Shown here one piece after another: positions 377-18,514 of a stretch of DNA of 32,172 nucleotides. This stretch comes from Lujinxingiaceae bacterium (GTDB lineage: Bacteria > Myxococcota_A > Bradymonadia > Bradymonadales > Bradymonadaceae). Numbering within the stretch: position 1 is the first letter of the stretch; the number at the start of each line of letters is the position of its first letter. The DNA is taken from the NCBI GenBank assembly GCA_013697635.1, contig JACCWM010000158.1, positions 1-32,172 on the forward strand, written 5' to 3'. Position numbers and translations under genes: made by a program. The notes below the pieces were generated by a model. That model saw only the letters and a list, made by a program, of their open reading frames with translations, had not been told where the DNA came from and did not search any database.

Positions 377-856
377 CTACTCGAAGATGTTCGACAGCGC
401 GAAGAAGGCGATCTTCTCGTTGCTCTCGCGAAGCCTGCGCGAGAGGGTATTGACGAAGCTCCACAAAATTTCAAAGGCCAGCTGCTTGTCGCGCTCGAGC
501 AGCCCCATGAACGAGGCGCGGTCGATCTTGCCCAGCATGCAGCTGTCGCCGGCGATGGCGTTGGCGCTGCGCTTGGAGGCGTCTTCGAGCAGCGCCATTT
601 CGCCGAAATAGGAGCCGGCCGTCAGAAAGGCCAGAGCCTCCTCGCCAATTCCGTGGATATCCTTGGAGATGCGGACCTCGCCGTCGAGGATGATGTAGAG
701 GGCATCGCCGACGGAGCCCTCCTCAAAGATGAGGTCGCCCATCTTGGGGCGCTCGATCGAGGTGATCGCCAGCACTTCGTTGAGCGCGCGATCGCCGAGT
801 TTGTGGAAGAGGTCGATGTCGCGAAGAAGCGATATTTCCAAAAATTTCCAACTCAC
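377..856 (-). CDS. Cyclic nucleotide-binding domain protein
   Basis: This is a stand-alone cNMP-binding domain (Crp/PKA regulatory type) of about 159 residues without a DNA-binding or kinase domain. The beta-roll is visible around residues 20-105, and the phosphate-binding cassette (FGEMALL at about 84-90, with the conserved Arg at about 96) looks intact, so cAMP or cGMP binding is plausible. A helical tail follows, with RRLRES near the end. I chose the GTG at 856 because AAGAG lies 7 nt upstream; a GTG at 862 is possible. The open frame extends to 958, but that part overlaps the previous gene. It is the last gene of the twelve-gene motor-like operon, beginning 14 nt after the preceding stop. 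By position it may make the system respond to a cyclic nucleotide; that is inference. Confidence 0.8.
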   Translation of the reverse strand: MSWKFLEISLLRDIDLFHKLGDRALNEVLAITSIERPKMGDLIFEEGSVGDALYIILDGEVRISKDIHGIGEEALAFLTAGSYFGEMALLEDASKRSANAIAGDSCMLGKIDRASFMGLLERDKQLAFEILWSFVNTLSRRLRESNEKIAFFALSNIFE

Positions 857-870
857 GATCACACTCTTGG

Positions 871-1422
871 CTAGAAGGTCAGTCCGAAGACGATCCGGTT
901 GCGATTTTCCACGAGCTCGGGCGGCGGCGTCCAACGCAGGATGCGCGCGCGAAGGCAAGCGATCAAGTTTTGCGAAGCTTCACCCGCTGCGGTGTTGATG
1001 TCAACGCGGGTTACCTTGGCGGCGTCGACCTGCAAGGTCACGGTCAGACGGTAGACCTCCTTGCTGTCGTCACGGCAGGGTTCGAGATCGACCGAGCGGT
1101 CGCGCACCCAGGCTAAGAGGCGCTGGCGCTCGAGCGGATCGATCGGGCGATCGGCCGCCGGAAGCCGCTCGGGTTCGCGTGGTTTGATCTTGGTGGTTGT
1201 GGTCTTGGGCGCGGGCGCTATGGGCTCGAGCACCTCGGGCGGGCACTCGTAGATGATCTGGGGCGGTGTGTGCACGATGCGCTCGACCACGCGCAGCTCT
1301 TGGTCGGAGGCCTCGAGCCCGGCGGGCGGTTCGGCGCAAAAGCGCGCACCAAAGAGTATGCCCACGCCCAGCGCGAGTAAGGTCAGAAACGATTGAAGCG
1401 CGAGATCGCGTTTTCGCTGCAC
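871..1422 (-). CDS. TonB/AgmX-type periplasmic protein, single N-terminal membrane anchor
   Basis: The protein has 183 residues. A basic N-terminus is followed by one hydrophobic segment (about 7-28), then a periplasmic linker rich in Pro, Glu, Thr and Lys (about 53-95), and a C-terminal domain (about 97-183). This domain has the layout of AgmX/PglI or TonB-like C-terminal domains: two cysteines (116 and 156), an alternating hydrophobic strand, the RVDI strand, and a late Arg-Trp-Thr-Pro-Pro segment where the family has W-x-F-P. AgmX domains occur in GltJ of the Myxococcus gliding machinery. The gene starts 9 nt after the vWA-like lipoprotein gene and 14 nt before the cNMP-binding gene, in the motor-like operon. 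It may link the inner-membrane motor to outer components. Domain assignment by eye is moderate. Confidence 0.65.
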   Translation of the reverse strand: MQRKRDLALQSFLTLLALGVGILFGARFCAEPPAGLEASDQELRVVERIVHTPPQIIYECPPEVLEPIAPAPKTTTTKIKPREPERLPAADRPIDPLERQRLLAWVRDRSVDLEPCRDDSKEVYRLTVTLQVDAAKVTRVDINTAAGEASQNLIACLRARILRWTPPPELVENRNRIVFGLTF

Positions 1423-1431
1423 ATCGAACCT

Positions 1432-2424
1432 TTAAAACATCTGGCGGACCTGGTTGCCCACGCCCAGCATCAGCGCTTCGGAGCGCGAGGACATCGCCTG
1501 GCACAAATCGATCATGGTGCCCTTTCCGCCGCCGCTTTGAAGGGCCTGCACGAAAGGCCCGTAGTAGGCCTTGGGCGAGGGCTCCATGACGTCGAGCATC
1601 GTCGCGGGAAAGTCCGGATAGCCTGTGCAGGCGCGCGAGAAGGCGTCGTAGCTGACGCCCTCGGGCGTGACGATCGCCAAATGGAAGATGCGCTTGGTCT
1701 GCACACCGCTGTCGCCGGCGAGCTCGAGCCAGGCAGCGTTCTGCTCGCTGTTTTTGGCCGTGAAGTAGGCGGCCGGTGCCTTACCGTCGAGCTGGCAAGC
1801 TGCATCGGTGGCGGCGCAGGGGCGCTGGCCGGCCGTGAGGTAGACGACGATGAAGCCGTCGGCGGCCTCTTGAAAGTAGGGGCGCGCTTGGGGGTTGGCC
1901 GTTTCCGGCCGATAGATCGCGCGCCGGCCCAGATCGAGGCCAAGCGCAGCGAGGTTTTCGCCGTCGGCGTCGGCGCGATCCTGCAGGTAGCGGTTGCTGT
2001 CATCGTAGGTGTAAAAGGCGATCGCCTCGCCGAAGTTCGAGAACTCTCCGCCTGATTCACCCTCGCCATAGATCAAGGGGACGACGGCCCCGGCGCGGTG
2101 ATAGAGCGGCGCCAGGGCCGCGCTTCGAACGTCGATGTGCTTGAGCGTCAGTGAGCCTATCAGCCCGAGCAAGATGTTGTGGTAGTGCGAGCTGAGGTTG
2201 GCCGAGCCGCGGTCGAGATCGACGAGCACCAACATGTCGACCACCTTGGGGGTGACCACGACGTTGTTGGTGTTGTTGCCGTTGTTGTTGTTGTTGCCGT
2301 CGCGGATGATCGTGCAGCCGGCCATGGCCAAAACCAGCCATGTCGTAAACGCCAAGATGAAGGCCGCCTGCAGGGCGGAAGAGCCAAGGACAGCATGTTT
2401 GAAGGGCGATCGTTGAGCTTTCAT
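1432..2424 (-). CDS. Lipoprotein with degenerate von Willebrand A-like fold
   Basis: The 330-residue protein begins with a hydrophobic segment ending in Leu-Ala-Met-Ala-Gly-Cys, a plausible lipobox with the lipidated Cys near residue 37. An Asn-run linker follows, encoded by a GTT/GCC trinucleotide tract. A vWA-like beginning is then seen: a hydrophobic strand ending in LVLVDLDRGS at about residues 65-74, where active vWA domains have DxSxS. The metal-site spacing is broken, so it is a degenerate MIDAS at best. Further strand/helix alternation runs to the end, with a few Cys (CAATDAAC, CTGY). Its ATG overlaps the stop of the FliF/FliG-like gene (ATGA). The first gene of the operon encodes another lipoprotein with a similar segment. 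Function unknown; it is probably a periplasmic or outer-membrane-attached partner of the motor. Confidence 0.7.
   Translation of the reverse strand: MKAQRSPFKHAVLGSSALQAAFILAFTTWLVLAMAGCTIIRDGNNNNNGNNTNNVVVTPKVVDMLVLVDLDRGSANLSSHYHNILLGLIGSLTLKHIDVRSAALAPLYHRAGAVVPLIYGEGESGGEFSNFGEAIAFYTYDDSNRYLQDRADADGENLAALGLDLGRRAIYRPETANPQARPYFQEAADGFIVVYLTAGQRPCAATDAACQLDGKAPAAYFTAKNSEQNAAWLELAGDSGVQTKRIFHLAIVTPEGVSYDAFSRACTGYPDFPATMLDVMEPSPKAYYGPFVQALQSGGGKGTMIDLCQAMSSRSEALMLGVGNQVRQMF
2263..2296. repeat. GTT trinucleotide tract encoding poly-Asn
   Basis: A nearly pure GTT repeat with two GCC-type interruptions lies in frame inside the vWA-like lipoprotein gene. Read on the minus strand it gives AAC codons, i.e. 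a run of Asn with Gly and Thr just after the lipobox. Such a tract can vary in length by slippage and would then change the length of the linker tethering the protein to the membrane. Confidence 0.8.
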
Positions 2425-4178
2425 TCGGCAGCCTCATTGGATGTGACCGGGTTGGATGATCGTTTGGAGCGAGCGAGCACGCGAGCGTTCATTTGGACGA
2501 CGTCATGGCCGTCGCGACGCAGCATCTCGGCCAAAGTCGTTGTGAAGGCATCGCGCGCCTCGAGAAACTCCGTTCGCCCCACCGGGATGCCCAGCGAGAG
2601 CTCCGAGTTGAGCGCCTGGCGTGTCGAGGGCGCAGCGTTTTGCAGGAGGTGATGGCGGATGTCGTCCTGGGTGGCGCGAAGGAAGTTGGCCAGCGTGGCA
2701 ATCGGCGTGCGGTGCATGGCATCGGCCAACACGTCGGTGGGCACCTCCAAACAGGTCGACTCGATGCAGACCTTGGCAAAGACGGCCTGGGCAACCTCGG
2801 GGCGTTTTTGGCTGAGTTCGCGCAGCACGTCTTCCTGATCGCCCAGTGCAAGCGCGCGCAGCATGTCGATGACGAGCACGGCCTGGCCTTCGGCCTCGCG
2901 GCCGATGTGCGAGAGCTCGTCGGCGGCCTTTCGCACACGCGTGGCCAGATCGATCGCTTGCTGCTTGGTCAACAGCTCGCCCACCCCGGCGCCCAGCATC
3001 AGCTCGCGGCGATCGATGGCCGAGAGCGACTCGAGGTAACGCGCGCGAAGGCTGGTCGGCAACTGATTGATGATATAGGCCTTTTCGGTGACGCCGCAGG
3101 TGTTGAGGATTCGGCGCAAGTTGGGCATCGACAGGCCTTCGAGAAACTCCCAGTCCATGGCGAGGCTGGCGCCGTCGTGCAGCACGCGCACGGCTGTCAG
3201 GCGTGCCCAGCACTCGTCGACCACCTTTTGGGCATCTTCGGCCTTGATCGCGCCCGCCTGGCGAGTGATGTGCTCGCTGACGCGCTCGATATACGGCTTG
3301 AGCGCCGCGTCACCGCGCAGATCGGCCAGGATCTCCGGGCTCAAAAGGCGCACGAGCAGGCCTACGGCCTCGGCGTCTTCTTCCATCCAGCGGCGCAAGA
3401 CCCGATTTTGGATCGCGCGCGAGCTCTTGAACTCGGCGCGAAGCGCGTCGACATCGGGCATGGCCTGAGCGCGCGCGCCTTCGGGCTCTTTGTTGGCCGT
3501 GGCGTCGCCTTTCGATCCATCGGCGGAGCGATCCAGGCGCTTGAGGATCAGCAAGATCAGCGCGCTCAAAATCAGCAGGGTCACAAACAGCGCGATCCAG
3601 GGAAGAAAGTCCAGCCAGCCCGGCTTCTGGGGTGGAGCAGGCTCGCTTGGCGCGGGCGCAGGCGTGGCATCGGGCTGGTGCTGGGGCTCGGGCCGCAGCT
3701 CGGGCTCGGGCGCGCGCCTTGGCGGCTCGGGTACGTAGGGCGGCATCGGGTGCAGTTGGGGCTCGGGAAAATCAAGCGTCTCAGGGCGCACCGTGACCAT
3801 GGGTGCCAGCGAGCTGAGGCGAAACTGCAGCATGCGCGGGATGTTGGTCAAAAAGTTTCGAGGCAGCTTGCTGTCGAGCAGCACGGTGACCTCGAGGTTT
3901 CTGACCGTCACCTCGTAGGACGAAGAGGCCACCGAGTCGAAACCCGGCGCGATGGCACCGATGGCGCGTGGCTGCTCCATGGCGGCCTTGACCTCGACGA
4001 GCTCACAGCGACCAGGGCACAGCCTGGAGAAGAGCGCCTCGATGGTCTGGCGGGCTTCAGCCTCCACGGCGCTGCGCTTGGCATCCATCGCGCCTCGCTC
4101 GGTGGCCGTGAGCTGGGCTAGCGCGCTTGTGGGCACGAAGAGGATCATGAGCAGTGCAAATAAAATGATCCGGTTCAT
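2421..4178 (-). CDS. FliF/FliG-like fusion: periplasmic domain, one TM helix, FliG-like cytoplasmic domain
   Basis: The protein has 585 residues. Residues 1-21 are a signal peptide. Residues 22-140 form a small periplasmic domain whose end (strand LEVTVLLD, helix, strand MVTV, then DFPEP) resembles the last ring-building motif of FliF. Residues 140-187 are Pro/Glu-rich, and 190-212 form one membrane helix. Residues 240-430 are helical and resemble FliG armadillo-type helices only weakly. Residues 435-560 resemble the FliG C-terminal domain: 479-527 align without gaps to the FliG segment that starts at the torque helix (shared LA, LxxA, LxNxxxR-like and terminal EL positions, then P-V and an A-x-x-x-x-L-x-x-x-L helix). 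The order fits FliF joined to FliG. The gene overlaps motB-like by ATGA and the next gene by ATGA. The FliG part is fairly secure; the FliF part is tentative. Confidence 0.7.
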   Translation of the reverse strand: MNRIILFALLMILFVPTSALAQLTATERGAMDAKRSAVEAEARQTIEALFSRLCPGRCELVEVKAAMEQPRAIGAIAPGFDSVASSSYEVTVRNLEVTVLLDSKLPRNFLTNIPRMLQFRLSSLAPMVTVRPETLDFPEPQLHPMPPYVPEPPRRAPEPELRPEPQHQPDATPAPAPSEPAPPQKPGWLDFLPWIALFVTLLILSALILLILKRLDRSADGSKGDATANKEPEGARAQAMPDVDALRAEFKSSRAIQNRVLRRWMEEDAEAVGLLVRLLSPEILADLRGDAALKPYIERVSEHITRQAGAIKAEDAQKVVDECWARLTAVRVLHDGASLAMDWEFLEGLSMPNLRRILNTCGVTEKAYIINQLPTSLRARYLESLSAIDRRELMLGAGVGELLTKQQAIDLATRVRKAADELSHIGREAEGQAVLVIDMLRALALGDQEDVLRELSQKRPEVAQAVFAKVCIESTCLEVPTDVLADAMHRTPIATLANFLRATQDDIRHHLLQNAAPSTRQALNSELSLGIPVGRTEFLEARDAFTTTLAEMLRRDGHDVVQMNARVLARSKRSSNPVTSNEAAE

Positions 4179-4990
4179 GGCCGGTTCTCCTCAATGGGCG
4201 GTGTCGGCTGTAGGGCTGGCGTGGGCACGTGGGCTGCGCGCTCGACGGCCTGGATCTTTTCGAGCAAATCGCTGTCGAGCGCGTCGATGCGGATGACGAC
4301 GCGCCGGTTGGCCGCGCGCACCACGTCGAGTTCGGCGGCGCTGAGCTGGGCGATGCGGGCGCGGTCGCTCAGATCGATGTCGGTCGCCGCCCGCGTGTCG
4401 GCAAAGCCCTGCACGCTCATGCGCCGGCGGTCGAGCCCGGCCGCGGTGAGGCGCTCCATGACGTGAATGGCGCGGCTCGTGGAGAGGTCCCAGTTGGAGC
4501 GAAAGCGTCGCGAGCCGATCGGCACGTCGTCGGTGTAGCCCTCGATCACCAGGCCATAGCGCGACTCGAGATCGTTGACCAGGTGGCCCTCGATCGGGGC
4601 AAAGACCTCGTGGGCGCTGGCGCGAAGCTCGGCCTCACCGGATTCGAAGAGAAAAGCGTTGGAGAACTCGATCTTGAGGCCATCGTCGTCGATCTGGGTG
4701 CGCACCTCGCCGCCCAACTGGCGCACGTCGATGACCTTGTCGATCTTCTCTTTGACCTCCTGCAGGTTGCCAGTCTTCTGGCCGGTGAGCGCGGAGACAA
4801 GCAGATCGTACTTGGTCTGAGCGATCGTCGAGATCGAGAGCAACAAGATCATGAAGGTCAAAATGATCGTCATCATGTCGGCGTAGCTGACCATCCAGCC
4901 CGCCCGATGCGAGCTGTGCTCGATGGCAAAAGCATTGTGGCCAAACATCGAGCCCTTGCGCTTGGCTGGCGACGACGCGGCGCTCCTCAT
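4175..4990 (-). CDS. MotB-like stator protein with OmpA peptidoglycan-binding domain
   Basis: The protein has 271 residues. It carries the MotB plug and helix: W32, then SYADMMT with the ion-binding aspartate at D38, in one membrane helix (about 33-56). A periplasmic OmpA-like domain spans about 110-236, with GYTDD (151-155), an N-x-x-L-S-x-x-R-A motif (167-175) and NRRVVIRI (228-235) for peptidoglycan attachment. A Pro-rich tail follows. In flagellar stators, MotB D32 carries the proton or sodium ion and the OmpA domain anchors the unit to the wall; the same role is expected here. The gene overlaps the motA-like gene upstream and the FliF/FliG-like gene downstream by ATGA, which implies translational coupling and stoichiometric assembly. 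No flagellar structural gene is nearby, so I give no motB symbol. Confidence 0.92.
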   Translation of the reverse strand: MRSAASSPAKRKGSMFGHNAFAIEHSSHRAGWMVSYADMMTIILTFMILLLSISTIAQTKYDLLVSALTGQKTGNLQEVKEKIDKVIDVRQLGGEVRTQIDDDGLKIEFSNAFLFESGEAELRASAHEVFAPIEGHLVNDLESRYGLVIEGYTDDVPIGSRRFRSNWDLSTSRAIHVMERLTAAGLDRRRMSVQGFADTRAATDIDLSDRARIAQLSAAELDVVRAANRRVVIRIDALDSDLLEKIQAVERAAHVPTPALQPTPPIEENRP

Positions 4991-5769
4991 GATTGCCTGC
5001 CTGCGCTGAGTCCATCGGTGCCCGAGCCGGCGTGCGTGGAGGCGACGCCAAAGACTTGCTCGACCTCATGGATTGGGCGTCGGCGAGCGAGCTTGAGCAT
5101 GCCCTCGACGATCAGTGAGAGATTTTCGGCGCGCTGGTTGCCCCGGTCGGCGACGATGCGTGAGAGCGGCAGATACAAAAGGTGAGCGAGCATCAGGCCA
5201 TAAAAGGTGGTTAAGAGCGCAATCGCCATGCCCGGGCCGAGCTTCTCGAAGTCGCGCATGTTGGCGAGCAATTGAATCAGGCCGATGACCGTACCGATCA
5301 TGCCCATGGCCGGGGCAAAGTCGCCAAGACTTGCGAGCACGCGCTCGCTGACGCGAAAGCTCTCCAGATCGCGCCTTCCAAGGATCATCGAGTCAACCTC
5401 GATCTCCACGGCGTCGGTCTGCTGGATGACGAGGCGCCCGACGTGGCGAAAGAGCGGATCGGCTTCGGCCTCCAGAATCGCCGAGGCCGCCACACCGCGA
5501 TCGCGGCGCACTTCGCGGCCAAAGGCTACGAGGTTTCGCGCCAGGCGCTCGCGGTCGCGCTCCGGGTTGTGAAAGAGCGTGCGGGCAAAGCCTTTGACGG
5601 CCAGCCAAAGCGAGCCGAAGGGATAGGTCAAGATCGTCAGGCCAATCGGCACGCCGATGAGCAAAATGGCCGAGTAAAGATTCCAAAACCCGGAGAACTC
5701 CGCCGTCATGTACTGGAACGCCAACAAAAACGATCCCACCACAATCAAAGCGCCAATTACGATGTGCAT
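4987..5769 (-). CDS. MotA/PomA-like stator protein
   Basis: The protein has 260 residues with four hydrophobic segments (about 2-21, 31-56, 147-170, 180-205), the MotA topology. A large cytoplasmic loop (about 60-145) contains the Arg/Glu-rich RRDRGV...EAE segment, corresponding to the part of MotA that contacts FliG. The third and fourth helices carry the strong MotA/PomA signature: APAMGMIGTVIGLI (152-165), then GPGMAIALLTTFYGLMLAH (178-196). These helices line the ion path together with MotB. An AGGT ribosome-binding site lies 8 nt upstream of the ATG. It follows the TPR lipoprotein gene after a 67-nt gap, the largest in the operon, and overlaps the motB-like gene by ATGA. The FliG-like partner encoded two genes later suggests that this stator drives it. 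Confidence 0.92.
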   Translation of the reverse strand: MHIVIGALIVVGSFLLAFQYMTAEFSGFWNLYSAILLIGVPIGLTILTYPFGSLWLAVKGFARTLFHNPERDRERLARNLVAFGREVRRDRGVAASAILEAEADPLFRHVGRLVIQQTDAVEIEVDSMILGRRDLESFRVSERVLASLGDFAPAMGMIGTVIGLIQLLANMRDFEKLGPGMAIALLTTFYGLMLAHLLYLPLSRIVADRGNQRAENLSLIVEGMLKLARRRPIHEVEQVFGVASTHAGSGTDGLSAGRQS

Positions 5770-5836
5770 CTATTTTACCTGCGGATGAACGGTTTACCAC
5801 TTGAGGAGTAGAGAGGTGCGATGGACCAAAGCGTGC

Positions 5837-6595
5837 TCAGCGGTCGAGGCCCTTGAGGGCGTCGATGACCTGACGGTTGTCAGGGTCAATCTGCAAGACT
5901 TGTTCCCAGGTTTCTCGCGCGAGCTCGGGTCGGCCAAGTTTCATCCATAATGTACCCTTCATCGAGAGAATTCTCACGTCATTTGGATAAGCCTTCTCGA
6001 GATCGGCGATCTTGACCATGGCCAGCTCGTGGTTGCCGCCTCGAAAGAGCTTTTGCACCTCCTCGGTGCCCAGCAAATAGCTCGGACGCGTGGGAGCGGG
6101 CCGGCTCTCGAGGTTGCCCATCGGGTCGGCCGGACCGGGGTTGGCGACCTGGTTGCCGTCGGCGTCGAGCTCGGCGCCGGGCTCGACGCCGCCGTGTTGG
6201 TTGCGCCCGGTCTGATCGTTGACGTTGCGGCCGCGGTGGTAGACACCCTCGCGCTCCATGTCCGGGTTGGTGCGGCGCATATGCTCGAGCAGCTGCTTGT
6301 CGGCCGAGGTGAGCTTGTGCGTCTCGCTGGCCAGGCCGGGCGTATTCTTGAGCGGGATGCGCACCTCGTAGCCTGTGGCCACCTCGGGAAACTCGATCTC
6401 CCAGTCGCGCTCACCATCGCTCATGCGCACGACATAGCGCTGCACGGGCACGGAGCCATCGCCGCGGTACTCGGGCGCCGAGGTGGCCGCGCTGGGCACG
6501 ATGATCGTCGTGGGCGCGTTTTGTTTGGCGCAGCCAAAGAGCAAGGCCGTGGCCAAGAGGGCGAGCGCTGCGCTGATGTGTGTCATAGGCTTCAT
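5837..6595 (-). CDS. TPR lipoprotein
   Basis: The protein has 252 residues with a lipoprotein signal (hydrophobic stretch ending in Leu-Leu-Phe-Gly-Cys at residues 18-22). After a short strand-rich part (about 50-90) there is an Asn/Gly/Asp-rich, probably disordered region (about 105-165). The C-terminal 80 residues form two or more tetratricopeptide-like helix pairs (AMVKIADLEKAYPND, then ARETWEQVLQIDPDN, with the typical P-D-N ends). TPR lipoproteins commonly act as assembly factors or scaffolds for outer-membrane complexes. The gene lies 20 nt after the CsgG/FlgO-like gene and 67 nt before the motA-like gene. A pilotin- or scaffold-like role for the envelope part of the motor is inference. 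Confidence 0.8.
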   Translation of the reverse strand: MKPMTHISAALALLATALLFGCAKQNAPTTIIVPSAATSAPEYRGDGSVPVQRYVVRMSDGERDWEIEFPEVATGYEVRIPLKNTPGLASETHKLTSADKQLLEHMRRTNPDMEREGVYHRGRNVNDQTGRNQHGGVEPGAELDADGNQVANPGPADPMGNLESRPAPTRPSYLLGTEEVQKLFRGGNHELAMVKIADLEKAYPNDVRILSMKGTLWMKLGRPELARETWEQVLQIDPDNRQVIDALKGLDR

Positions 6596-6615
6596 GGTCG
6601 TCGACCTGCTAAGTG

Positions 6616-7815
6616 TTACCAGTTAAAAGAGATTCGTCCCTTGGCGCCCATGCCGCCCAGATCGCTGCTGTCGAACTCGACGGGCATGAAGTAGAAGACG
6701 CTGACGCCCGCGCCGAGTCGAAACTGCATGATGATGTCCAGTCCCCACTCCGCAAAAAACGAATTGCCCTCGGTGCCGGCGACGAAGCCGCCGATCGTGG
6801 GGCCGGTGCGGTAGGTGGGATCGTTGAGGTTGGCCTCAAAAATCTCCCACTGCAGCGTGCCCGAGATAAACGAGCCGAGCAGGGCGTTGCCCCCGAGATT
6901 GGCGAAGGCCTCGCCGCCCACGCCGAACAAAAAGCGGCGATTCTCGCCGAACTTCTCATAGAGTCTGTAGCCCAACGAGGCACCGGAGATGCCGCCCAGG
7001 GGAGAGTCGTAGGGGATGTAGGCCGCGCCGCCGTAGAGGATGTGGCCGTAGTAGGGCCGCGCGTCGATCTTGCGCTCGAGCTCCTTGAGCCGCTCGGCGC
7101 GCGACATGACCCGGTCTCCGGAGCGCAGGATCGCCGCCGTGGAAGCATCGGAGCGATAAGTCTCGGTCCACAAGATCGCACCGTCGCGGGCGCGAAAGAT
7201 CTCGACCTGCAATGCGACGATGTTCGCGCCGGGGAAAAACGACAGGCGCGCGTCCAGGTAGGTGAGCGCGCCCAGGTTGGAGGCCTCGCGCACGAGATCC
7301 TCCTGGCGCGTCAGACCCAACGAGACTACCCAGGTGTCGTCCTCGACGCGTGAGCGAAGCGCCCGACACGCCGCGCAGCGCTTCATGGTGAGTTGAGTAT
7401 TGTTGGACAAAGCCGAGATCAACGTGCCTTCGACGATGTCCCCAAACTGCGCGCTCAGGTTGGGCGTGAGGCTGACATTTCGAACCGCCGCAGGCGAGAT
7501 CACGCTGGCATTGAGCTTGCTGACGTCGGCGACGACCTCGTCGATCATCTCTTCGACGAGTTGATAGATGTGGATGGCCCCCTCGCCACTTTGGATCTGG
7601 CGAAAGGTCGACTCGGAGATCTGGTTGTAGCGCCCCTGATCGTCGCGCGCCGGTCGGTCGCGGCGCACCGGATCCTCGGCGCCAGGCGCGTCGGGCACGG
7701 CGGTCGGCACGCCGCCCGCTTCCTGGGCAGCGAGCGGCCCGGCGCGGAGCAGCGAGACGGCCAGCAGGAGCGCGAGCACGGGGCCCACGTTGAATAGGAA
7801 GGGTTTCATGGTCAT
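6616..7815 (-). CDS. CsgG/FlgO-like protein with C-terminal outer-membrane barrel
   Basis: The protein has 399 residues: a signal peptide ending near Ala-Ala|Gln at residue 30, an Asp/Arg/Pro-rich linker, then an alpha/beta domain (about 70-225). The end of that domain resembles CsgG/FlgO-type proteins: a strand beginning GALTYLDARLSF, then VALQVEIFRARDGAILWTET, where these families have a residue class like v-D-a-x-T-G-e-i-l-W. A CxxC pair is at 147-150. Residues about 258-399 are aromatic/glycine-rich alternating strands ending in Phe-Asn-Trp, as expected for an outer-membrane beta-barrel. The family call is by eye. The start could be the ATG at 7815 or 7809; I chose 7815 for its GAG 5 nt upstream. 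It lies 23 nt after the previous stop and 20 nt before the TPR gene. FlgO-type proteins accompany outer-membrane rings in Vibrio flagella, which fits the motor context. Confidence 0.65.
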   Translation of the reverse strand: MTMKPFLFNVGPVLALLLAVSLLRAGPLAAQEAGGVPTAVPDAPGAEDPVRRDRPARDDQGRYNQISESTFRQIQSGEGAIHIYQLVEEMIDEVVADVSKLNASVISPAAVRNVSLTPNLSAQFGDIVEGTLISALSNNTQLTMKRCAACRALRSRVEDDTWVVSLGLTRQEDLVREASNLGALTYLDARLSFFPGANIVALQVEIFRARDGAILWTETYRSDASTAAILRSGDRVMSRAERLKELERKIDARPYYGHILYGGAAYIPYDSPLGGISGASLGYRLYEKFGENRRFLFGVGGEAFANLGGNALLGSFISGTLQWEIFEANLNDPTYRTGPTIGGFVAGTEGNSFFAEWGLDIIMQFRLGAGVSVFYFMPVEFDSSDLGGMGAKGRISFNW

Positions 7816-7838
7816 CGGCACTCGTCGTTGCTGCTGCA

Positions 7839-8810
7839 TCAAAATGCCCATCCAAAGAGCCACTCGACGCCCCATAAGGCTTCGCTGCTCATCCACTGGT
7901 TGAGGCCGCGTCGGGTCTCGGGATTGTAGTTGCCGGCCGCGTAGCGGGCCTGATTGTACACCAGATAGCCGTATTCGAAGCCAAGTCGTGTATGGCCGCC
8001 GAACTCGAACTGCATGTCGATGCCCGCTGCGCCGCGCACGACGTGGTACTCGGTCGAAAGCGACTGGCTTCCGTAGCCGCCGCCGTAGCCATAGTAGTCC
8101 TGGCCAAAGCTACCCCAGCCCGCCATCACGCCGGCCGACAGGTACGGAGAAAACCACGACTCCATGGGAAAGACCGTGGCCGAGGCGCCAAGGAAATAGG
8201 CCTCATGGTAGCCTTCGATGCCGATGAGCTCGGTGTCGGAATACTGGTAGATATACTCGTCGTGGTAGAGAAATGTCGTTTCGACGCGCAAAAGGCCGGC
8301 GAATGTGTAGCCCGCGACGGCCCCGTAGCCCAGCATCGAGAGCTTGACGTCCAGGCCCCAGGGATCGCTCAGACGCGGGATTTGCTCGATTCTGCGCTCG
8401 TTGTAAAATTGCGCAAGATCCTCGACGTACTTCTCCTCTTTGAGGACCGCCACGCGTCGATTGAGCCTCGAGCGCGCCTTGATCCGCTCAATTCGGCAAC
8501 GCCGGTCAAGCCCGCACTGATCGTCGGCCGACTCATCGAGCACCTGAGCGCTCGACGTGCCCTGCTGCGCACTGGCGGACGTGCGATCGCTGCCGGATCG
8601 CAGCTTTTCGTCGACACAGATCTGATCGCGGCAGGCAAAGCCTGCCTGGCAATCCTGGTGACGTGTGCAGCTGATCTGGTTGTTGGCGTTTGCATTGGGA
8701 AAGAGCAGGGACATGCATGTCTGCGCGCTCGCTGCGCCAGGCCAGGCCAGGCATACGACAAGCGCAAACAGTGAAAGCAGTGCCGACAGCTGGCGCGGGC
8801 GAACGTTCAT
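7839..8810 (-). CDS. Outer-membrane beta-barrel protein with N-terminal Cys motif
   Basis: The protein has 323 residues. A signal peptide ends at about Ala-Ser-Ala|Gln (residue 29). A short Cys-rich module follows (ISCTRHQDCQAGFACRDQIC, about 46-65), of the same style as the Cys-rich proteins at both ends of the window. A charged helical stretch (about 70-140) with repeated Arg/Glu precedes a barrel-like domain (about 150-323) made of alternating strands rich in Tyr, Gly and Phe (YYGYGGGYG) and ending in Trp-Ala-Phe. These are the marks of an outer-membrane beta-barrel. The ATG overlaps the preceding stop (ATGA). The link to the motor is by operon membership. The family is not recognised beyond that. 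Confidence 0.7.
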   Translation of the reverse strand: MNVRPRQLSALLSLFALVVCLAWPGAASAQTCMSLLFPNANANNQISCTRHQDCQAGFACRDQICVDEKLRSGSDRTSASAQQGTSSAQVLDESADDQCGLDRRCRIERIKARSRLNRRVAVLKEEKYVEDLAQFYNERRIEQIPRLSDPWGLDVKLSMLGYGAVAGYTFAGLLRVETTFLYHDEYIYQYSDTELIGIEGYHEAYFLGASATVFPMESWFSPYLSAGVMAGWGSFGQDYYGYGGGYGSQSLSTEYHVVRGAAGIDMQFEFGGHTRLGFEYGYLVYNQARYAAGNYNPETRRGLNQWMSSEALWGVEWLFGWAF

Positions 8811-10768
8811 GGCCTGGCTCCCGCCGACTCAGGCTCGGTAAAAAACGATGGCCAATTCGCTGGCTGCACTTCGTCGCGAGGCACGAGCGCCAGTGAAAAC
8901 ACCGGCGAAAGCGTAGGCTCGATCGGCGGCTCGAACTGGGCGAGCTGGCGCGCGTTGAGCTGAACCGTACCGAGCACCAGAGGCGCGGCGTCGGTGGCGC
9001 CGACGCGCTCGGCGTAGCCGCGCGGATGATCGTCGAGCATGGCGCTGGCCAGCCGGTAGAGCTCGACGAGCGCCGGGCGTGCCAGCGATTCGTTGGTCTC
9101 GCGCAAAAATCCCTGGGTCTGAGCGACGATGATGCGCAGCCACTTTTGGCGGCGAACGCGCGCCCTGGGCGTCTCGCCCCACTCGGCCATCACCGGCAGC
9201 ATCAGGCGCAAGGCGCGCGCGAGCTCGGCATCGGCGTGGGCAAAAAACGACGAGCGACGATGTTGGGGCACGACATCGAGCAGCTTGTCCGGGCGGGCTG
9301 TGATTTTTGCGACATTTTCGACGAAGACACGCTCGTTGTCGTCAAGAAACGCCGAGAGGGCCAGCAGTGCGTAGAATCGTGGATGCTCGCGTGCGTCGGT
9401 TTGGCGCGCGAGCAACCAGCGCGCCGCGGCTGCCGCATTCTCCGGGCGTCCGCGATCGAGTGAGACTGCGGCAAACTCTTCAACACGCCCAAAGGTCTTG
9501 TTTCGAGGGCCCATCTCCTCGAGCAGCTCGATCGTGCGCGCCTCGAAGGGGTAATCGGCGATCGTCTGCAAGACCTCGGCGTAGAGTCCGCGCATGAACG
9601 GATCGGCCTCGTAGGGGCGATCGCGAAAGGCTGCCATCGCCAGGGCAAGGAAGCGATCTTCGAGGCCGACGCGGCGCAAGCTGAGCGCACCGTAGTAGGC
9701 ATAAGGGCTGAAAAATCGCGACGTTTGCGGCGGCACCTTCTCGGTGAGCGCCGCTGCGTCCTCCCAAAGCGCTGCGTTCATCAACAAACGCAGCCGCAGA
9801 TAGCGCGAGCCCCAGTGGTTGTCATCCGAGAGGCCCAGCGCTTCGGCGCGCGCGAGGTGGCCAAGAGCATCGCTTGGCCGCTCGAGCTTTGCGAGCAGCA
9901 CGCCGTGCAAAAGCTCCATGCGCGAGCGCTCACCAGAATCGACGAGTTCAACGACTTCATAGCGGCTTGCAGCCTCGAGGTGAGCGAGCGCCTCGCGGTG
10001 GAGGGCGGCGATCTTCTCCGGGTCGGCGCCGTCGTCGCGCTCGAGTTTGCGCGCCTCGCTCCAGAGCAGCTGGGCGCCGTGAACCCGCGTGTGCCACAGC
10101 AGCCTGGTCAGGCTCTCGCCGCCCTGATCGTCGGAGAGCGCGCGGCCGGCCGCGAGCACAGCCTCGACGGCGCTGATCTCGAGAGCGACCCAGTCCTGGG
10201 CCACCACACCATCGCTTGGGGCGGCCGTGACCGACTCGGCCAACGACTTTCGCAGCTCATCGCAGCCGGAGTCGGCCGCCAGAGGCGCAGGCAGCTCGTC
10301 GACCCAGGACTCGTCCTCGGGAAGCCAGTAAATGTAGCCGGGTGGCAGGTGATCGGCGACGCGGTCGAAGAAATCTGGATGATGCAGCCGGGCGAAGATC
10401 GTGTCTCGCCCCCAGGTACCCGTGCGCGCGGTGAGGGCCTGGCCGAGCATGCGCTCGCGACGAGCATCCTCGAGCACGAGGCCGGCATAGACCACACGCG
10501 CGAGCGGGTCTTGCAGGCCCAGATCCTCGGGATTTGCGACCTTGCGGCAATTGATCAGCGCAACCCAGCCCTCGGCGACCGAGGTCCAGTCATCGCCCGA
10601 TGCGGTGTGGCGCTCCATGGCCACGCGCTGCTCAAAGGCTGCGAGCTTTCGCTCGTAGAGCAGCTCAAAGCGTGCATCTTGCGGCAAGCTCGCATGGCTG
10701 TAGGTGACACAACCCGTGCTCAAGGCCGCCGCAGCCACAAGGAGTCGAACGCTCCAATGATTGGTCAT
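8807..10768 (-). CDS. Large helical-repeat (TPR-like) lipoprotein
   Basis: The protein has 653 residues. The signal ends in Leu-Ser-Thr-Gly-Cys (about residue 20), a good lipobox. The rest is almost wholly alpha-helical, with repeated Ala/Leu/Arg/Glu helix pairs such as LREALAHLEAASRYE-like and SDALGHLARAEALG-like segments, typical of a TPR or Sel1-like solenoid; no catalytic residues stand out. I use the ATG at 10,768, which overlaps the upstream stop (ATGA), rather than the longer frame to 10,810. The last codons overlap the next start. A large periplasmic solenoid lipoprotein is a plausible scaffold between the inner-membrane motor and the outer-membrane barrels. No specific family is recognised. 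Confidence 0.75.
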   Translation of the reverse strand: MTNHWSVRLLVAAAALSTGCVTYSHASLPQDARFELLYERKLAAFEQRVAMERHTASGDDWTSVAEGWVALINCRKVANPEDLGLQDPLARVVYAGLVLEDARRERMLGQALTARTGTWGRDTIFARLHHPDFFDRVADHLPPGYIYWLPEDESWVDELPAPLAADSGCDELRKSLAESVTAAPSDGVVAQDWVALEISAVEAVLAAGRALSDDQGGESLTRLLWHTRVHGAQLLWSEARKLERDDGADPEKIAALHREALAHLEAASRYEVVELVDSGERSRMELLHGVLLAKLERPSDALGHLARAEALGLSDDNHWGSRYLRLRLLMNAALWEDAAALTEKVPPQTSRFFSPYAYYGALSLRRVGLEDRFLALAMAAFRDRPYEADPFMRGLYAEVLQTIADYPFEARTIELLEEMGPRNKTFGRVEEFAAVSLDRGRPENAAAAARWLLARQTDAREHPRFYALLALSAFLDDNERVFVENVAKITARPDKLLDVVPQHRRSSFFAHADAELARALRLMLPVMAEWGETPRARVRRQKWLRIIVAQTQGFLRETNESLARPALVELYRLASAMLDDHPRGYAERVGATDAAPLVLGTVQLNARQLAQFEPPIEPTLSPVFSLALVPRDEVQPANWPSFFTEPESAGARP

Positions 10769-11424
10769 GGGCCGGCCTCTGGGACGGCCGCAAGCCCGCC
10801 ATAGGACCACCCCAGGCCGAGAAACGGCGCGAATCCAAAGCTCGGTACCCAGCCTCGGTCACGTCGTTCCATTTGTGCGGTCAAATTGAGGTCCAACTTC
10901 ACCTGAATGCCCCACTTGAAGTGGTTGAGCAGCGAAAGCCCGGTCAACACCGTGGGCAATACACGTTGACCAGCAAAGGCCGTGCCGGCGTGCAGCGTAA
11001 TTTGCGGATCGAAATGCACGACAAAGGTGTCAAAGGCCAGGATCTTGCCGTAACCAAACGAGTAGCGCAGCCCGGCCGTGGTCAGATAATTCTGCGCTCG
11101 CGCGTCCGGCGTCAGCCCGGCGCGCTCACGAATACTGTCGCCCGCTCCGCTCAAGCGCGTATAAAGCCAGACAAGGCGAAGCTCAGCGCCAAGCTGTTCA
11201 TTGAAGTAGTAGCCCAGATCCAGGCCCGCGCCCAGAGTGTTGTATAGGTCGTTTCGAACGTGGGTGACGCCCACCAGATGCATCGTGACATGGCCCTCTT
11301 TGGTGCCGAATCGTTTTTGCACCGTCGGCCGATTGGGCGGCGTGTCCTCGCGCTCGGCGGCCAGCCCGAGTGGCGCAGCGAGCAAGCCCAGGCAGAGCGT
11401 CAGTAGGGGCGCAAAGCTCTTCAT
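10765..11424 (-). CDS. Outer-membrane beta-barrel protein, myxobacterial type
   Basis: The protein has 219 residues: a signal peptide ending near Leu-Gly-Leu-Ala-Ala (about 23), then a short linker and a compact eight-strand-like barrel. The segment VGVTHVRNDLYNTLGAGLDL, followed by YYFNEQLGAELR, resembles the small outer-membrane barrel family found in many copies in Myxococcota (strand with N-x-L, then the D-L-x-Y-Y-F-x-E-x-L-G motif). The open frame runs up to 11,502, but the ATG at 11,424 overlaps the upstream stop (ATGA) and directly precedes the signal sequence. Both neighbours are lipoproteins of the motor-like operon. This is probably one of the outer-membrane components of the assembly. 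Confidence 0.75.
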   Translation of the reverse strand: MKSFAPLLTLCLGLLAAPLGLAAEREDTPPNRPTVQKRFGTKEGHVTMHLVGVTHVRNDLYNTLGAGLDLGYYFNEQLGAELRLVWLYTRLSGAGDSIRERAGLTPDARAQNYLTTAGLRYSFGYGKILAFDTFVVHFDPQITLHAGTAFAGQRVLPTVLTGLSLLNHFKWGIQVKLDLNLTAQMERRDRGWVPSFGFAPFLGLGWSYGGLAAVPEAGP

Positions 11425-13064
11425 CGCGTCCACTGGCATACCTGACTTTGCTGCCAGTTGTCGTAATCGACACCGGAGCGCGTGCGGTAGGGGCCATCGC
11501 AAAAACGCTCGCAGATCTCGACGACAACCACAACGCGCTGGCGGCGGTACTCGACGTGTGCAACGAATTCCTGGGGCTCGAGTTCGACGCGATAGTCTAG
11601 CGCGCCGTCGCCAGGCCAGTGGTAAACGCTGCCCGAGGCGCGCACTGCGAGGCCCGAGATGACCAGGTGAGAGATTTGGGGGGTGGCATCACAGATCTTG
11701 AAGAATTGCGGGCGGGTTGCGCCCTCCGGGCGGCGAATCGGCACCTGCGTGAAACGGTCGTGGTCCATCGTGCGAAAAGGCACGTTGTAGGTGGCGAAAG
11801 CCTTCAAATCGGCCAGAAACGACTCGTCCTCAATCGGGCGCCAACCCGTCGACCACTCCCAGGGCGCGAGACCCATCAAAGTGTTCGAGCCGATCAGCCA
11901 GCTATAGGGCACGAGCTCGTCGGTCTGATACATCTGGTTGGCAAAATCGTAGAGCTGCAAGATCAGCCGCTCGCTGGGCGGAAGTTCCATATTGTTCAAG
12001 TAGACGAGCACCACGCGCACACGCTCAGGCGCAAAGCGCGCTGCCGCATTCTTGATGTCTTCGGCCATCTTCGAGACCGGATAGTCCTGGCGTGCACGCT
12101 GGGTGCAGCCGTCGGTCGAATCCCCCGTGTCGGCCGAGATCGGCGTGTAAATGCCGGCTCGCACGACATTGGAGCCGCGCGCGTTCAGGCTTGCCGAGGC
12201 TGTTCCAACAATCTTGTCGGTGACCTGCTTGCAGCGCTGAGCGTTGCTGATCTGTAAATCGACCAAGAAGAGGTACACCGTTGCATGCGTTTGCTCCGGC
12301 GGAACGTAGTCTTGAGATTCCCAGAAGAGCTCAGCCGAGGGCTTGAAGGGCACCTTGACGATCACGCCGGCGTTGTCGTCGCGTTTGGGCCTGGCGGCCA
12401 CGCACCAGGCGCCCGAGGTCCAGCCCTCGGCAAGAGCGCTGCGCGCTCCCAGCTCCAGCCAATTCGATCGTGGCTCGGCGCATGGATCGGTGTCGCTTCC
12501 ACGGCCGACGAGCTGCCACTGGTAGCCGCGCTTGAGCGGGATCTTGTTGTCGGCAAACCAGTCCTGCCGGCGCGCATCGAGCCTGCTGTTGTTCTCGACG
12601 GCGATCGGACGCACGCCGAAGGTCTGGTGAGCCTGATGACGGCGCGCCTCGCTACCAGGAAACACGCCGTGGCGCGCATGGACCGAGCGGATCGGTGCAA
12701 GATCCGAGGGGAAATTATAGCGCCCCGGCAACTGGTACTGAAAGCAGACGTAATTTCTGTCACAGGGGTAGGGCTCCGCAGCATAGGGTGCTTTGGACAG
12801 ATCGAGGCGCACGAAGTCAAAATTGAGGTAGATCTCAAATTCTATGTCTTCGAGTGCGGCCTCGTCGCGAAGCCGCCATGACAGAAAAGTCATGTCCTCT
12901 TGATGCGAGTAGACCACATCCAGGCCGCGAATGGCGTGCGGGCCACGCTCAAATTCGACGAACGCACACCCATAAACGGCGCACAATATGAGCAGAACAC
13001 TGGGCCAAAAGGCGCAGCGGACCGATGTACTTGTGCGGATCGGCTGTGGGGACGTTTGTGGCAT
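11421..13064 (-). CDS. Large lipoprotein with vWA-like segment, first gene of the motor-like operon
   Basis: The protein has 547 residues, starting at the ATG at 13,064, which lies about 26 nt after the predicted transcription start. The frame is open to 13,286, but that part is non-coding in character and includes tandem repeats. A hydrophobic segment ends in Ala-Val-Tyr-Gly-Cys, a possible lipobox with an unusual Tyr at position -2. The middle has several Cys (CDRNYVC, ARPK, DPCAEPR), and around residue 270 a hydrophobic strand VYLFLVDLQISN, similar to the LVLVDLDRGS strand of the vWA-like lipoprotein near the other end of the operon. It is followed by helix/strand alternation to VRVVLVYLNNMEL. 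The C-terminus has more strands and three Cys. Its stop overlaps the next ATG. Function unknown. Confidence 0.7.
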   Translation of the reverse strand: MPQTSPQPIRTSTSVRCAFWPSVLLILCAVYGCAFVEFERGPHAIRGLDVVYSHQEDMTFLSWRLRDEAALEDIEFEIYLNFDFVRLDLSKAPYAAEPYPCDRNYVCFQYQLPGRYNFPSDLAPIRSVHARHGVFPGSEARRHQAHQTFGVRPIAVENNSRLDARRQDWFADNKIPLKRGYQWQLVGRGSDTDPCAEPRSNWLELGARSALAEGWTSGAWCVAARPKRDDNAGVIVKVPFKPSAELFWESQDYVPPEQTHATVYLFLVDLQISNAQRCKQVTDKIVGTASASLNARGSNVVRAGIYTPISADTGDSTDGCTQRARQDYPVSKMAEDIKNAAARFAPERVRVVLVYLNNMELPPSERLILQLYDFANQMYQTDELVPYSWLIGSNTLMGLAPWEWSTGWRPIEDESFLADLKAFATYNVPFRTMDHDRFTQVPIRRPEGATRPQFFKICDATPQISHLVISGLAVRASGSVYHWPGDGALDYRVELEPQEFVAHVEYRRQRVVVVVEICERFCDGPYRTRSGVDYDNWQQSQVCQWTR

Positions 13065-13097: not shown

Positions 13098-13126
13098 ATT
13101 ATCGACTGCCTGAGGTAGGTTTGCAA
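13098..13126 (-). promoter_or_regulatory. Sigma70-type promoter of the motor-like operon
   Basis: On the minus strand a -35 box TTGCAA (13,126-13,121; 4 of 6 to consensus) and a -10 box GATAAT (13,103-13,098; 5 of 6) are separated by exactly 17 bp. Transcription would begin near 13,090, about 26 nt before the ATG at 13,064. It is placed correctly to drive the twelve-gene unit. Prediction by eye only. Confidence 0.5.
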
Positions 13127-13324: not shown

Positions 13325-14668
13325 TCAGCCGTGCTTGCGGTTGATCCGCTCGGCGACGACGACGGCGTCGACGATCGACCAGATATGTACAACCCAGCCG
13401 AGCAGCACGAACCACAGCAAGAAGCAAAGGACCATCATGATGATGCCCTTGCTGACCTCACCGTTGTAGATCTGGCCGGTGCCGCACAGGATCAGGCTGA
13501 GCAAAAGGGCCATGCCCGGTTGGTGCTCGGGTTGTTCGATATGGCTGTCACAGGCGAGCACGAAGTCGCCCTTGTGGGTTGCGGCCAGGGCCGTGGTGGG
13601 CCCGGCGTAGCCAAAGCCGTAGTCGTCTCGCGCCGGGGTCAATGGGCTGGAGACGTGCTCGTAGCCTGTGCACGAGACGACCGTGGGGCGCGCATCGGGC
13701 AGCGGCTTGGGCTCGCAGCGCGCCGTCGTGCTGACGACCAGCGGGCTCGAGCCGCAGCGATCCAGGCTGGCATCGGGTGTGGCATAGCGACTGGTCACAC
13801 CAAAGAAGAGGTCTTCGCGCGGGGCGGTCTGCGTGCGCGCTCGCTGCTGCTGCTGGGCCGGCTGCTGATACCAGGGCTGCTGCTGGGTTTGCTGCTGCGG
13901 GTGGTGGTGCTGCGGGTGAGGCTGTTGTTGCTGGGGATCGGGCTGGGCAAAGCGTGGTTGCTGATGGAGTGGTTGGTGATGGAGTGGTTGGTGATGGAGT
14001 GGTTGGTGATGGGGGGCGTGCAGCGCTGAGGCATTGGGCGCGTTGTCGCCATCCTGGCCAAAGGCCGTATAGCCGTGGTGGTGGCGTGCGTTGGGGTTGC
14101 CCAGTTGAGCATCGTGGCCCTCGGCCTGGACGGGTGGGCTGTGGGCGGCGATCGCGGCGCGTGGCTCCATGCGCCGCGGTGGCGGGGCATAGGCCGGGGT
14201 GTCATCGCTGGTGGCGGCGTTGGGATTGACAAAGCTGCGCGTTGCGCCGCTTTGGGCCACCGCCGGGCTTTGGAACGCGGGCGGCAGCGCCGAGTTTTGC
14301 GGCTGGGGCAGCGGAGGCGCAGCCGGCTGCATGTTCGGCTGCAAACGCGGCGGGCTCTGGGGCGCCGGCGCCACCCTCTGGGGCTGGTGCGAGCTGGGCA
14401 ATGGCTCAGGGCTGTGTGCGCTCAACGTCTCGAAGCGCTCGCGCGAGAGCGCCGCCGCTACCTCGCCCTGGTTGGGCACGCGGTAGTAGAGGTTGCCCTC
14501 GGCGTCGCTGTCAAGCTCGAGCACACCCTCCTCGAGCAAGAGATTGAGCAGGCGATTGGCTTCGCGACTGGGAATGCCCAGATAATAGGCGACCGAGGCC
14601 GTCGTGATCCGGGCGTCCGTCTCGAAGGCCAATTTTAGAATTGCTTGTTCAAATCGTTGAACTTCCAT
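13325..14668 (-). CDS. Winged-helix / TM2-domain membrane protein with His/Gln/Pro repeats
   Basis: The protein has 447 residues from the ATG at 14,668, which has AGGGTGG 8 nt upstream. The first 75 residues look like a winged helix-turn-helix (helices FEQAILKLAFETD, TTASVAYYLGIPSREANRLLNLL, then a wing). Residues about 80-300 are low-complexity Pro/Gln/His/Ala, with a four-fold 15-bp DNA repeat giving HHQPL units. Residues about 300-370 contain paired Cys (CGSSP, CEPK, SCTG). The C-terminal 65 residues are two membrane helices around a polar turn (LLSLILCGTGQIYNGEVSKG, then hydrophobic), as in TM2 domains, ending in Asn-Arg-Lys. A winged helix joined to a TM2 domain suggests a membrane-tethered regulator or scaffold. 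Target unknown. It is transcribed towards the motor operon. Confidence 0.75.
   Translation of the reverse strand: MEVQRFEQAILKLAFETDARITTASVAYYLGIPSREANRLLNLLLEEGVLELDSDAEGNLYYRVPNQGEVAAALSRERFETLSAHSPEPLPSSHQPQRVAPAPQSPPRLQPNMQPAAPPLPQPQNSALPPAFQSPAVAQSGATRSFVNPNAATSDDTPAYAPPPRRMEPRAAIAAHSPPVQAEGHDAQLGNPNARHHHGYTAFGQDGDNAPNASALHAPHHQPLHHQPLHHQPLHQQPRFAQPDPQQQQPHPQHHHPQQQTQQQPWYQQPAQQQQRARTQTAPREDLFFGVTSRYATPDASLDRCGSSPLVVSTTARCEPKPLPDARPTVVSCTGYEHVSSPLTPARDDYGFGYAGPTTALAATHKGDFVLACDSHIEQPEHQPGMALLLSLILCGTGQIYNGEVSKGIIMMVLCFLLWFVLLGWVVHIWSIVDAVVVAERINRKHG
13956..14015. repeat. Four in-frame 15-bp repeats (HHQPL units)
   Basis: The unit GGTTGGTGATGGAGT occurs four times in tandem from 13,956 to 14,015. 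The two middle copies (13,971-13,985 and 13,986-14,000) are identical; the first has one change and the last ends in GGGGG. Read on the minus strand it encodes repeated His-His-Gln-Pro-Leu. Being a multiple of three, copy-number change keeps the frame. Confidence 0.85.
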
Positions 14669-14894
14669 ATGGCGCCACCCTTCTTCCGTTACCACTTCAC
14701 CCAACGACTGCGGTCAACCAGTCGCCCTATGCGGTGCATCCGTCTAGTCACCTAACAATGGTACCGATTGGGATTGTTCCCAACAAGCACAGCCGCGAGG
14801 TGCACACCGTGTGTGCCGAGGCGTGCTCGCCGGCTGCATTCTTTGACGCAGCCAAGGACCAAAATGTTTCGAGAAAATCTCTCATTTCTATATA

Positions 14895-15663: not shown

Positions 15664-16092
15664 TCAGCTCGTCTTGACCTTGACCTGGTGGCGCTTCTTG
15701 CTGGCGCTCTTGGGAAGGTGAACGTGCAAGACCCCCTCCTTGAGCTTGGCCTGGACCTTTGCAGCGTCGATGCCCGCGCCCAAGACAAGCGTGCGCCGAT
15801 ACTCCACGATCTCGTCTTGCTGTCCGTTTTGGCCGCTCTTCTTGCCCTTGCCGTTGCCGTTGCCGGTCTTGTTGTTTTGAGCGAGTTGAGGCGTCCAGGT
15901 GCCGTAGAAGGTGAGGCGCTCCTCGGCGAAGTTGACCTCGAGGCTCTTCGGATCGACGCCGGGCATGTCGGCGATCACGAGCAACTCCTCGTCATTCTCA
16001 CAGATATCAACCGCTGGAATCATCACCTCAGGGTGGCCTTGGGTGAAAAGAGCAGTGGGATTGAGGCGAACAGGTACGTTTTGCAGGGCCAT
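15664..16092 (-). CDS. Small heat-shock protein, Hsp20/alpha-crystallin family
   Basis: The protein has 142 residues from the ATG at 16,092, with a strong GAGGAG 4 nt upstream (the frame also offers an ATG at 16,104 that would skip this site). After a short N-terminal arm (ALQNVPVRLNP) comes the alpha-crystallin domain: ADMPGVDPKSLEV, then a middle linker with an inserted low-complexity Asn/Gly/Lys run (NNKTGNGNGKGKKSGQNG), then EYRRTLVLGAGID and the A-x-x-x-x-G-V-L motif (AKLKEGVLHVHLPK). A Lys-rich tail follows, lacking a clear I-x-I/V motif. Such proteins hold unfolding proteins in an ATP-independent manner. It is the second of two adjacent hsp20 genes, 48 nt after the first. The insertion in the domain is unusual. 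Confidence 0.93.
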   Translation of the reverse strand: MALQNVPVRLNPTALFTQGHPEVMIPAVDICENDEELLVIADMPGVDPKSLEVNFAEERLTFYGTWTPQLAQNNKTGNGNGKGKKSGQNGQQDEIVEYRRTLVLGAGIDAAKVQAKLKEGVLHVHLPKSASKKRHQVKVKTS

Positions 16093-16140
16093 TTTGCTCC
16101 TCAAAAAATTAAGATGCGGGGTTTACAAGGCGTCGAAAAA

Positions 16141-17521: not shown

Positions 17522-17527
17522 CGTTTC

Positions 17528-18507: not shown

Positions 18508-18514
18508 GACGCCT

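Follow-up and report, generated by a model that had tools for sequence, protein, structure and literature searches.

The locus described here raises the question of whether a rotor and stator of flagellar type can be used outside the flagellum, given that a genome survey relied on FliG, MotA and MotB as markers specific to the flagellum (PMC3459982). The locus is an operon in a Lujinxingiaceae bacterium that encodes relatives of all three among predicted envelope proteins. It lies within a stretch of 32,172 nucleotides, referred to as the window, which lies in contig JACCWM010000158.1 (C167) of a 6.21 Mb genome (G000) in 213 contigs that is 99.45% complete. A preliminary description, made from the sequence alone, had proposed an ion-driven motor that spans the envelope, possibly for gliding, with a cyclic-nucleotide-binding protein as its output. 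The stator parts and the FliF/FliG-like chain of that proposal are borne out by profile, structure, synteny and tree results, but gliding and the cyclic-nucleotide output are not. The operon probably encodes a dedicated, non-flagellar, ion-driven stator-rotor machine spanning the envelope, where this degree of confidence applies to the stator-rotor core and not to its output.

Twelve minus-strand open reading frames (ORFs), g1 to g12, run from position 13064 down to 377, and all block coordinates given below are on that strand. Six junctions are 4-base overlaps (g1/g2, g2/g3, g3/g4, g7/g8, g8/g9 and g9/g10), and the remaining junctions show a slight overlap or a gap of 9-67 nucleotides. The conserved unit is formed by the eleven genes g1-g11 (window 871-13064). 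Searches by tblastn with each protein show that the order and direction of g1-g11 are kept in ten other loci (L023-L026, L029-L032, L058 and L059, with g1 of L025 truncated by a contig end), which come from two families of one Bradymonadia-type class. Protein identity across these loci is about 23-72%, and neighbouring genes mostly overlap or almost touch. Given this recurrence, the arrangement is far beyond chance. The same order is found up to the contig ends in five more loci of the window's family, and three genomes from another Myxococcota class (G364, G405 and G380) carry parts of the block g2-g10 in order. Genes flanking the block vary between genomes on both sides, and the 5' border is drawn at g1 since the genes upstream of it change between relatives.

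The last gene of the run, g12 (377..856), encodes a cyclic-nucleotide-binding-domain protein (cNMP_binding, 8.2e-19) and adjoins the block here. In relatives its homologue lies 1.3-3 kb away with intervening genes, sometimes on the opposite strand, or is not found nearby; therefore g12 is placed outside the conserved unit. The co-directional run with ATGA-type overlaps or short gaps stands as first described, but the twelve-gene operon is reduced to eleven conserved genes, and g12, which is no fixed neighbour, loses its proposed role as output. The single good promoter that had been assigned to the run fares no better, as the search that gives the putative site at 13,098-13,126 yields 3 sites in all, against a chance expectation of 2.1 +/- 1.3, and a number this close to expectation is no evidence. 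The same strand carries most of the genes in the window.

The stator is, by sequence, of the flagellar class rather than the Tol/Ton class. The g7 gene (4987..5769) encodes a MotA-type stator subunit (MotA_ExbB, 1.1e-19; PomA model, 4.8e-29), which in a profile search against solved structures matches PomA/MotA at E 2e-28 and TolQ at 2.7e-4. The g8 gene (4175..4990) encodes a MotB-type subunit with a transmembrane helix, a plug (MotB_plug, 1.2e-12) and an OmpA peptidoglycan-binding domain (6.8e-12), such that both assignments of the preliminary description hold. Asp38 in the membrane helix of g8 is invariant in its family, and R88-R89, a basic pair in the torque loop of MotA, is largely conserved among the operon MotAs. 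A stator survey, which also covers the roles of FliG residues, splits these transporters into flagellar and generic groups (PMC12505986); the operon stator has the marks of the flagellar group, as it is nearer to MotA/PomA than to TolQ/ExbB and carries both plug and OmpA domains in MotB. In a maximum-likelihood tree the operon MotAs group together (92/88) beside flagellar MotAs of the same bacterial class (94/91), where both supports are moderate in that each has a value below 95. The six TolQ/ExbB-like proteins of this genome stand apart from both MotA groups (100/100).

The candidate for a rotor subunit is the product of g9 (2421..4178), which the structural model and FliG_C match indicate to be a natural fusion of FliF and FliG. 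Its single chain is arranged in the order of a signal peptide, a periplasmic RBM3-like domain that lacks the FliF beta-collar (residues 24-138; 3765..4109), a transmembrane helix predicted from both sequence and AlphaFold model (residues 189-220; 3519..3614), and the middle and C-terminal, or torque, domains of FliG (residues 341-560; 2499..3158). The model has a mean predicted local distance difference test (pLDDT) score of 77. Its residues 25-135 form an alpha-beta-beta-alpha-beta domain and residues 189-220 a long helix, after which come helical repeats. In a Foldseek search with the model, FliG comes out on top, followed by FliF S-rings. With VIA-align, the model matches the middle and C-terminal domains of FliG (3ajc) at Z 14.6, FliG_C (1qc7) over 89/89 residues at 2.0 A, and RBM3 of the FliF S-ring (8z5v) at Z 11.2 over 97 residues at 2.8 A, and it fits the MotAB-bound FliG_C 8ucs_H at 2.1 A. 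The g9 family profile matches FliG over the same two domains at E 1.5e-6, and FliG_C is matched by 11 of 13 family members. The similarity to FliG therefore survives profile searches, and the FliF/FliG-like chain that had been described stands, with the FliG part seen by profile and fold and the RBM3 part at the level of the fold. A Pfam search found no YscJ_FliF (RBM1/2) domain in g9. The FliM-binding EHPQ motif of the FliG middle domain is present in aligned flagellar FliGs of the same class and absent from g9, which fits a rotor without a switch complex. The periplasmic domain also contains a CPGRC motif (window 4005-4019), conserved in the window's family and absent in G364, that may form a disulfide.

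Several observations weigh against the stator-rotor reading. The window's g9 by itself exceeds the FliG_C cut-off just barely, with 23.7 bits against 23.3. Ferredoxin-like magnetosome domains (MamB and MamM) score near FliF, at Z about 10, so that the FliF assignment rests on the fold together with chain position. Alignment of g9 to a profile of eight FliF proteins from relatives gives weak local matches (hhalign P 0.04), whose two short segments fall on the two halves of RBM3. Among the torque positions of FliG, a Glu at the D289 position is kept in the aligned operon proteins, but D288 is lost in the g9 family, the residue for R281 sits one position away, and Arg replaces K264 in most members, with Gln in some. 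Finally, most of the partners meant to carry the output belong to no known family.

That several classical torque residues are out of register in g9 is also consistent with a fixed adaptor, in which the FliG domains would recruit and unplug MotAB, the FliG fold would be kept for docking only, and MotB, g6 or g11 would carry the force to the outer membrane in the manner of Ton and Tol. Such an adaptor would be in keeping with the weakly TonB/AgmX-like linker g11 in the operon and with the Ton, Tol and Agl systems, which are described without a rotor ring (PMC9389320). A complete FliG_C and an RBM3-type, ring-building domain on one chain, however, exceed what docking needs, and the MotA stays in the flagellar stator class rather than that of TolQ. 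The fixed adaptor is considered unlikely.

If g9 is instead a rotor, a mechanism can be outlined for the stator-rotor core. The g7 and g8 proteins would form a flagellar-class stator, anchored to peptidoglycan via the OmpA domain of MotB, and the MotA ring, as it turns, would push against FliG_C in g9. The FliG part of g9 would be linked covalently, by one membrane helix, to a periplasmic ring-building domain of FliF RBM3 type. In this way g9 alone could make up a minimal rotor, with an inner-membrane ring and a torque ring that would assemble and turn without RBM1, RBM2, the beta-collar, the export gate, the rod or the FliM/FliN switch. Engineered FliF-FliG fusions assemble and rotate in genuine flagellar motors (PMC10128058), and for this reason a natural fusion is mechanically plausible. 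Both versions have FliF and FliG in one chain, but the laboratory constructs work within complete flagella, whereas g9 is natural and lies outside flagella. The periplasmic ring would hand its motion to g5, to the barrels g2 and g4, to the lipoproteins g1, g3, g6 and g10, and to the transmembrane linker g11.

Outer-membrane barrels, proposed in the preliminary description, are supported for two of these proteins. The g2 product (10765..11424) matches OMP_b-brl at 1.5e-4 and reaches 55.9 bits with OMP_myx_plus (cut-off 60). In the AlphaFold model of g5 (6616..7851), a periplasmic LpoB/TolB-N-type domain (LpoB, Z 12.7 over residues 112-251) is predicted to precede an 8-stranded outer-membrane barrel (NspA, Z 17.8 over residues 278-426), and identity within the g5 family is 44-62%. 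The LpoB/TolB-N fold class is that of CsgG and FlgO. The earlier CsgG/FlgO-like label thus holds for g5 at the level of the fold, as seen in the predicted model, but a g5 profile matched nothing among solved structures. The g4 product (7839..8810) is a secreted protein with a Cys-rich N-terminal stretch and a C-terminal part that, from its sequence, is probably a barrel; it is among the least conserved members of the block. The putative linker protein g11 (871..1422) has an N-terminal transmembrane helix, a Pro-rich periplasmic linker and a C-terminus weakly like the AgmX/PglI tail. With 5 of 12 family members matching AgmX/TonB-type models, at a best E of 0.003, the AgmX/TonB label is a weak one.

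Four further products are predicted lipoproteins, with signals judged by eye and, for g1, g6 and g10, an invariant Cys taken from alignments. The first gene of the block, g1 (11421..13064), encodes 547 amino acids with Cys33 invariant in its family, and g10 (1432..2424) has an invariant Cys37; neither belongs to a known family, and there is no match between the two. A von Willebrand-type (CglB-like) reading, made for both by eye, was rejected when profile searches against solved structures found nothing. The large g3 product (8807..10768) is likewise of no known family; its longest ORF begins at 10810, and the start at 10768 gives the 4-base overlap with g2. The g6 product (5837..6595) has an invariant Cys22 and a C-terminal TPR (TPR_2, 4.8e-5).

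The relation of the operon to flagella can be judged from its distribution. Of 21 genomes in the window's family, 14 contain the g9 family, as do all 3 genomes of the second family from this class. Members of the window's family include Lujinxingia vulgaris TMQ2, in which the operon is present and a flagellar FliG is not. An operon-type MotA (E below 1e-117) accompanies g9 throughout the class, with the exception of a single genome in which a contig ends there, and a wide gap separates it from the next MotA matches, which are flagellar, at 1e-31. The g9 family also occurs in G364, G405 and G380, the three genomes of another Myxococcota class, and no convincing match was found in the remaining Myxococcota genomes sampled. 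A match in G047 (2e-6) was taken as chance, as it covers the linker and membrane region only (positions 146-228). Some short ORFs (G054:C37:2741-2998, G055:C5:8920-9168 and G053:C537:4859-5167) give additional, weak matches to FliG_C, at E 5e-12 to 5e-9, and belong neither to flagellar FliG nor to the g9 family.

Three relatives carry the operon together with a flagellum (G001, G008 and G015), and three others carry it with a flagellar FliG (G054-G056). One has a flagellum and no operon (G013), and three have neither (G002, G004 and G009). In the genome of the window, family searches, on which the absence of flagellar genes rests, found no flagellar-type FlhA, FliF, FliM/N, FliG or MotA outside the locus, and FliG_C only in g9. 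There is a single FHIPEP (SctV/FlhA-type) gene, in a solitary context like that of the non-flagellar copy of flagellated G001; a single, weak, SctJ-like YscJ_FliF gene (2.4e-19, versus about 1e-62 in flagellated relatives); and a single SctQ-type FliMN_C gene, all three with scores like those of type III secretion. The flagellated relatives G001, G008, G013 and G015 hold extra copies of FlhA/SctV, YscJ_FliF and FliMN_C. Pfam searches of the block gave no match for export apparatus genes or for rod, hook and filament genes, with flagellin not searched genome-wide. The absence of filament, hook, rod and export genes noted earlier is thus correct for the window, but the genome holds one SctV/FlhA-type gene elsewhere. 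Homologues of the operon do not lie in flagellar gene clusters; as to whether their genomes lack flagella, the present one does as far as tested, but G001, G008 and G015 do not.

Its coexistence with a flagellum in those three relatives means that the operon is not itself a flagellar cluster, nor a relic of one. Homology of its parts to the flagellar motor might suggest the degenerate remnant of a lost flagellum. The block, however, consists of eleven intact genes whose order is kept across two families, has no export, rod, hook or filament genes, coexists also with flagellar FliG, and encodes a MotA whose clade is separate from that of the flagellar MotAs in this bacterial class, all of which make a remnant barely credible. 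The single SctV-, SctJ- and SctQ-type genes could point to an accessory motor for type III secretion, whose genes are dispersed in these bacteria, but they are located elsewhere and also occur in the operon-less relatives G002, G004 and G009, and such a role is very improbable. The scattered genes themselves are found at L057 (SctV, G000:C180:5034-7256), at L078 (SctJ, G000:C187:5454-5972) and at G000:C142:36970-37161 (SctQ), and the neighbourhood of the SctV gene is kept in G001.

The output of the motor is a separate question, for which gliding was the first proposal. This genome has a separate cluster resembling the Agl-Glt core (L146, G000:C26:32000-45000), with a TolQ-like and two ExbD-like proteins, a large TPR protein, a GltE-like protein (87 bits) and a GltG-like protein with an AgmX tail (111 bits), followed by a polysaccharide-export protein. 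The NCBIfam Glt models that find the GltE- and GltG-like proteins there match none of g1-g11. Persicimonas moves by flagella and gliding, Bradymonas glides weakly and Lujinxingia glides (PMC7188933); of the three, only Lujinxingia has the operon, which G013 (putative Persicimonas) and G002 (putative Bradymonas) lack. Because two gliding genera appear to be operon-less, with genome assignments that are tentative, gliding does not track the operon cleanly. Gliding as the output is possible, but unsupported.

A variant of the Agl-Glt gliding machine of Myxococcus would account for a similar architecture, in which an ion-driven (proton-channel) motor is combined with a TonB-like linker, trans-envelope TPR proteins and barrels (PMC3169522). 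Agl, however, is built from one TolQ-type and two ExbD/TolR-type proteins and has no OmpA-type MotB, FliG or FliF, and given also the separate cluster and the lack of Glt matches in the operon, this variant is most improbable. The motor may, tentatively, move a surface or adhesion structure, with surface translocation as the output. The same core could instead drive trans-envelope transport or outer-membrane remodelling, such as polymer or protein export, an alternative that is compatible with the stator-rotor core and differs in output only. The CsgG/LpoB-like domain on a barrel, the several barrels and lipoproteins, and the presence of the operon in flagellated and non-flagellated genomes alike, separate from the gliding candidate of Agl-Glt type, would all suit transport or remodelling, but no gene for an exported substrate, a protease or a polymer accompanies every locus. 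This output is judged slightly less likely than surface translocation, with both below even odds.

The operon was compared with the flagellum, Agl-Glt, Zorya and type III secretion, and none of them fits. With the flagellar motor it shares the stator class, the middle and C-terminal domains of FliG, the RBM3-type domain and the inner-membrane topology; it differs in having FliF and FliG in one chain, linked to outer-membrane proteins, and in lacking RBM1, RBM2, the beta-collar, the FliM-binding motif, export, rod, hook and filament. Tol-Pal and ExbBD-TonB are likewise motors of the MotA/TolQ/ExbB superfamily that work on the outer membrane, but the operon stator belongs to the flagellar class, carries an OmpA domain and has FliG as its partner. 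The type IX secretion/Gld system (GldLM) shares the idea of a 5:2-type motor that moves outer-membrane parts, but its envelope set is different and no GldL/GldM-type match is seen among the operon family hits. Zorya ZorAB is a MotAB-like complex outside flagella, and g8 matches ZorB models (68 bits), but g7 matches no ZorA model, no other Zorya protein (ZorC/D) was matched, and the operon has a FliG partner.

The operon belongs to the ion-driven stator machines, with a real chance of representing a new class. In the open-access literature, a scope that leaves out most subscription papers and all bioRxiv-only preprints, no description was found of a non-flagellar FliG, a natural FliF-FliG fusion or a Myxococcota FliG, and the parts consulted of reviews on gliding and 5:2 motors mention no FliG-bearing non-flagellar motor. 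The chances are about evenly balanced that these genes define a separate class of rotary envelope machine that Bradymonadia share with some other Myxococcota. In such a machine, a stator of flagellar class, from a lineage branching beside and not within the flagellar stators of these bacteria, would turn a ring of single-chain FliF-FliG rotors, and the ring would drive an outer-membrane assembly in place of a filament. If so, rotor and stator can function together as a module that needs no export, rod, hook, filament or switch. As a reduced motor, it would lend itself to structural work, would test in nature how MotA drives FliG, and could serve for comparison where the origin of the flagellum is concerned. 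It would also be a testable new force generator within a group of predatory bacteria.

The remaining observations concern the genes upstream of the block. A TM2-like protein with a long Gln/His/Pro-rich stretch (window 13325-14704) is encoded directly upstream of g1 and is kept there in several relatives, though not all. Further upstream, the same strand carries riboflavin and housekeeping genes (ribD, ribE, ribBA, ribH, nusB and nrdR) together with two Hsp20 genes (window 15664-24583).

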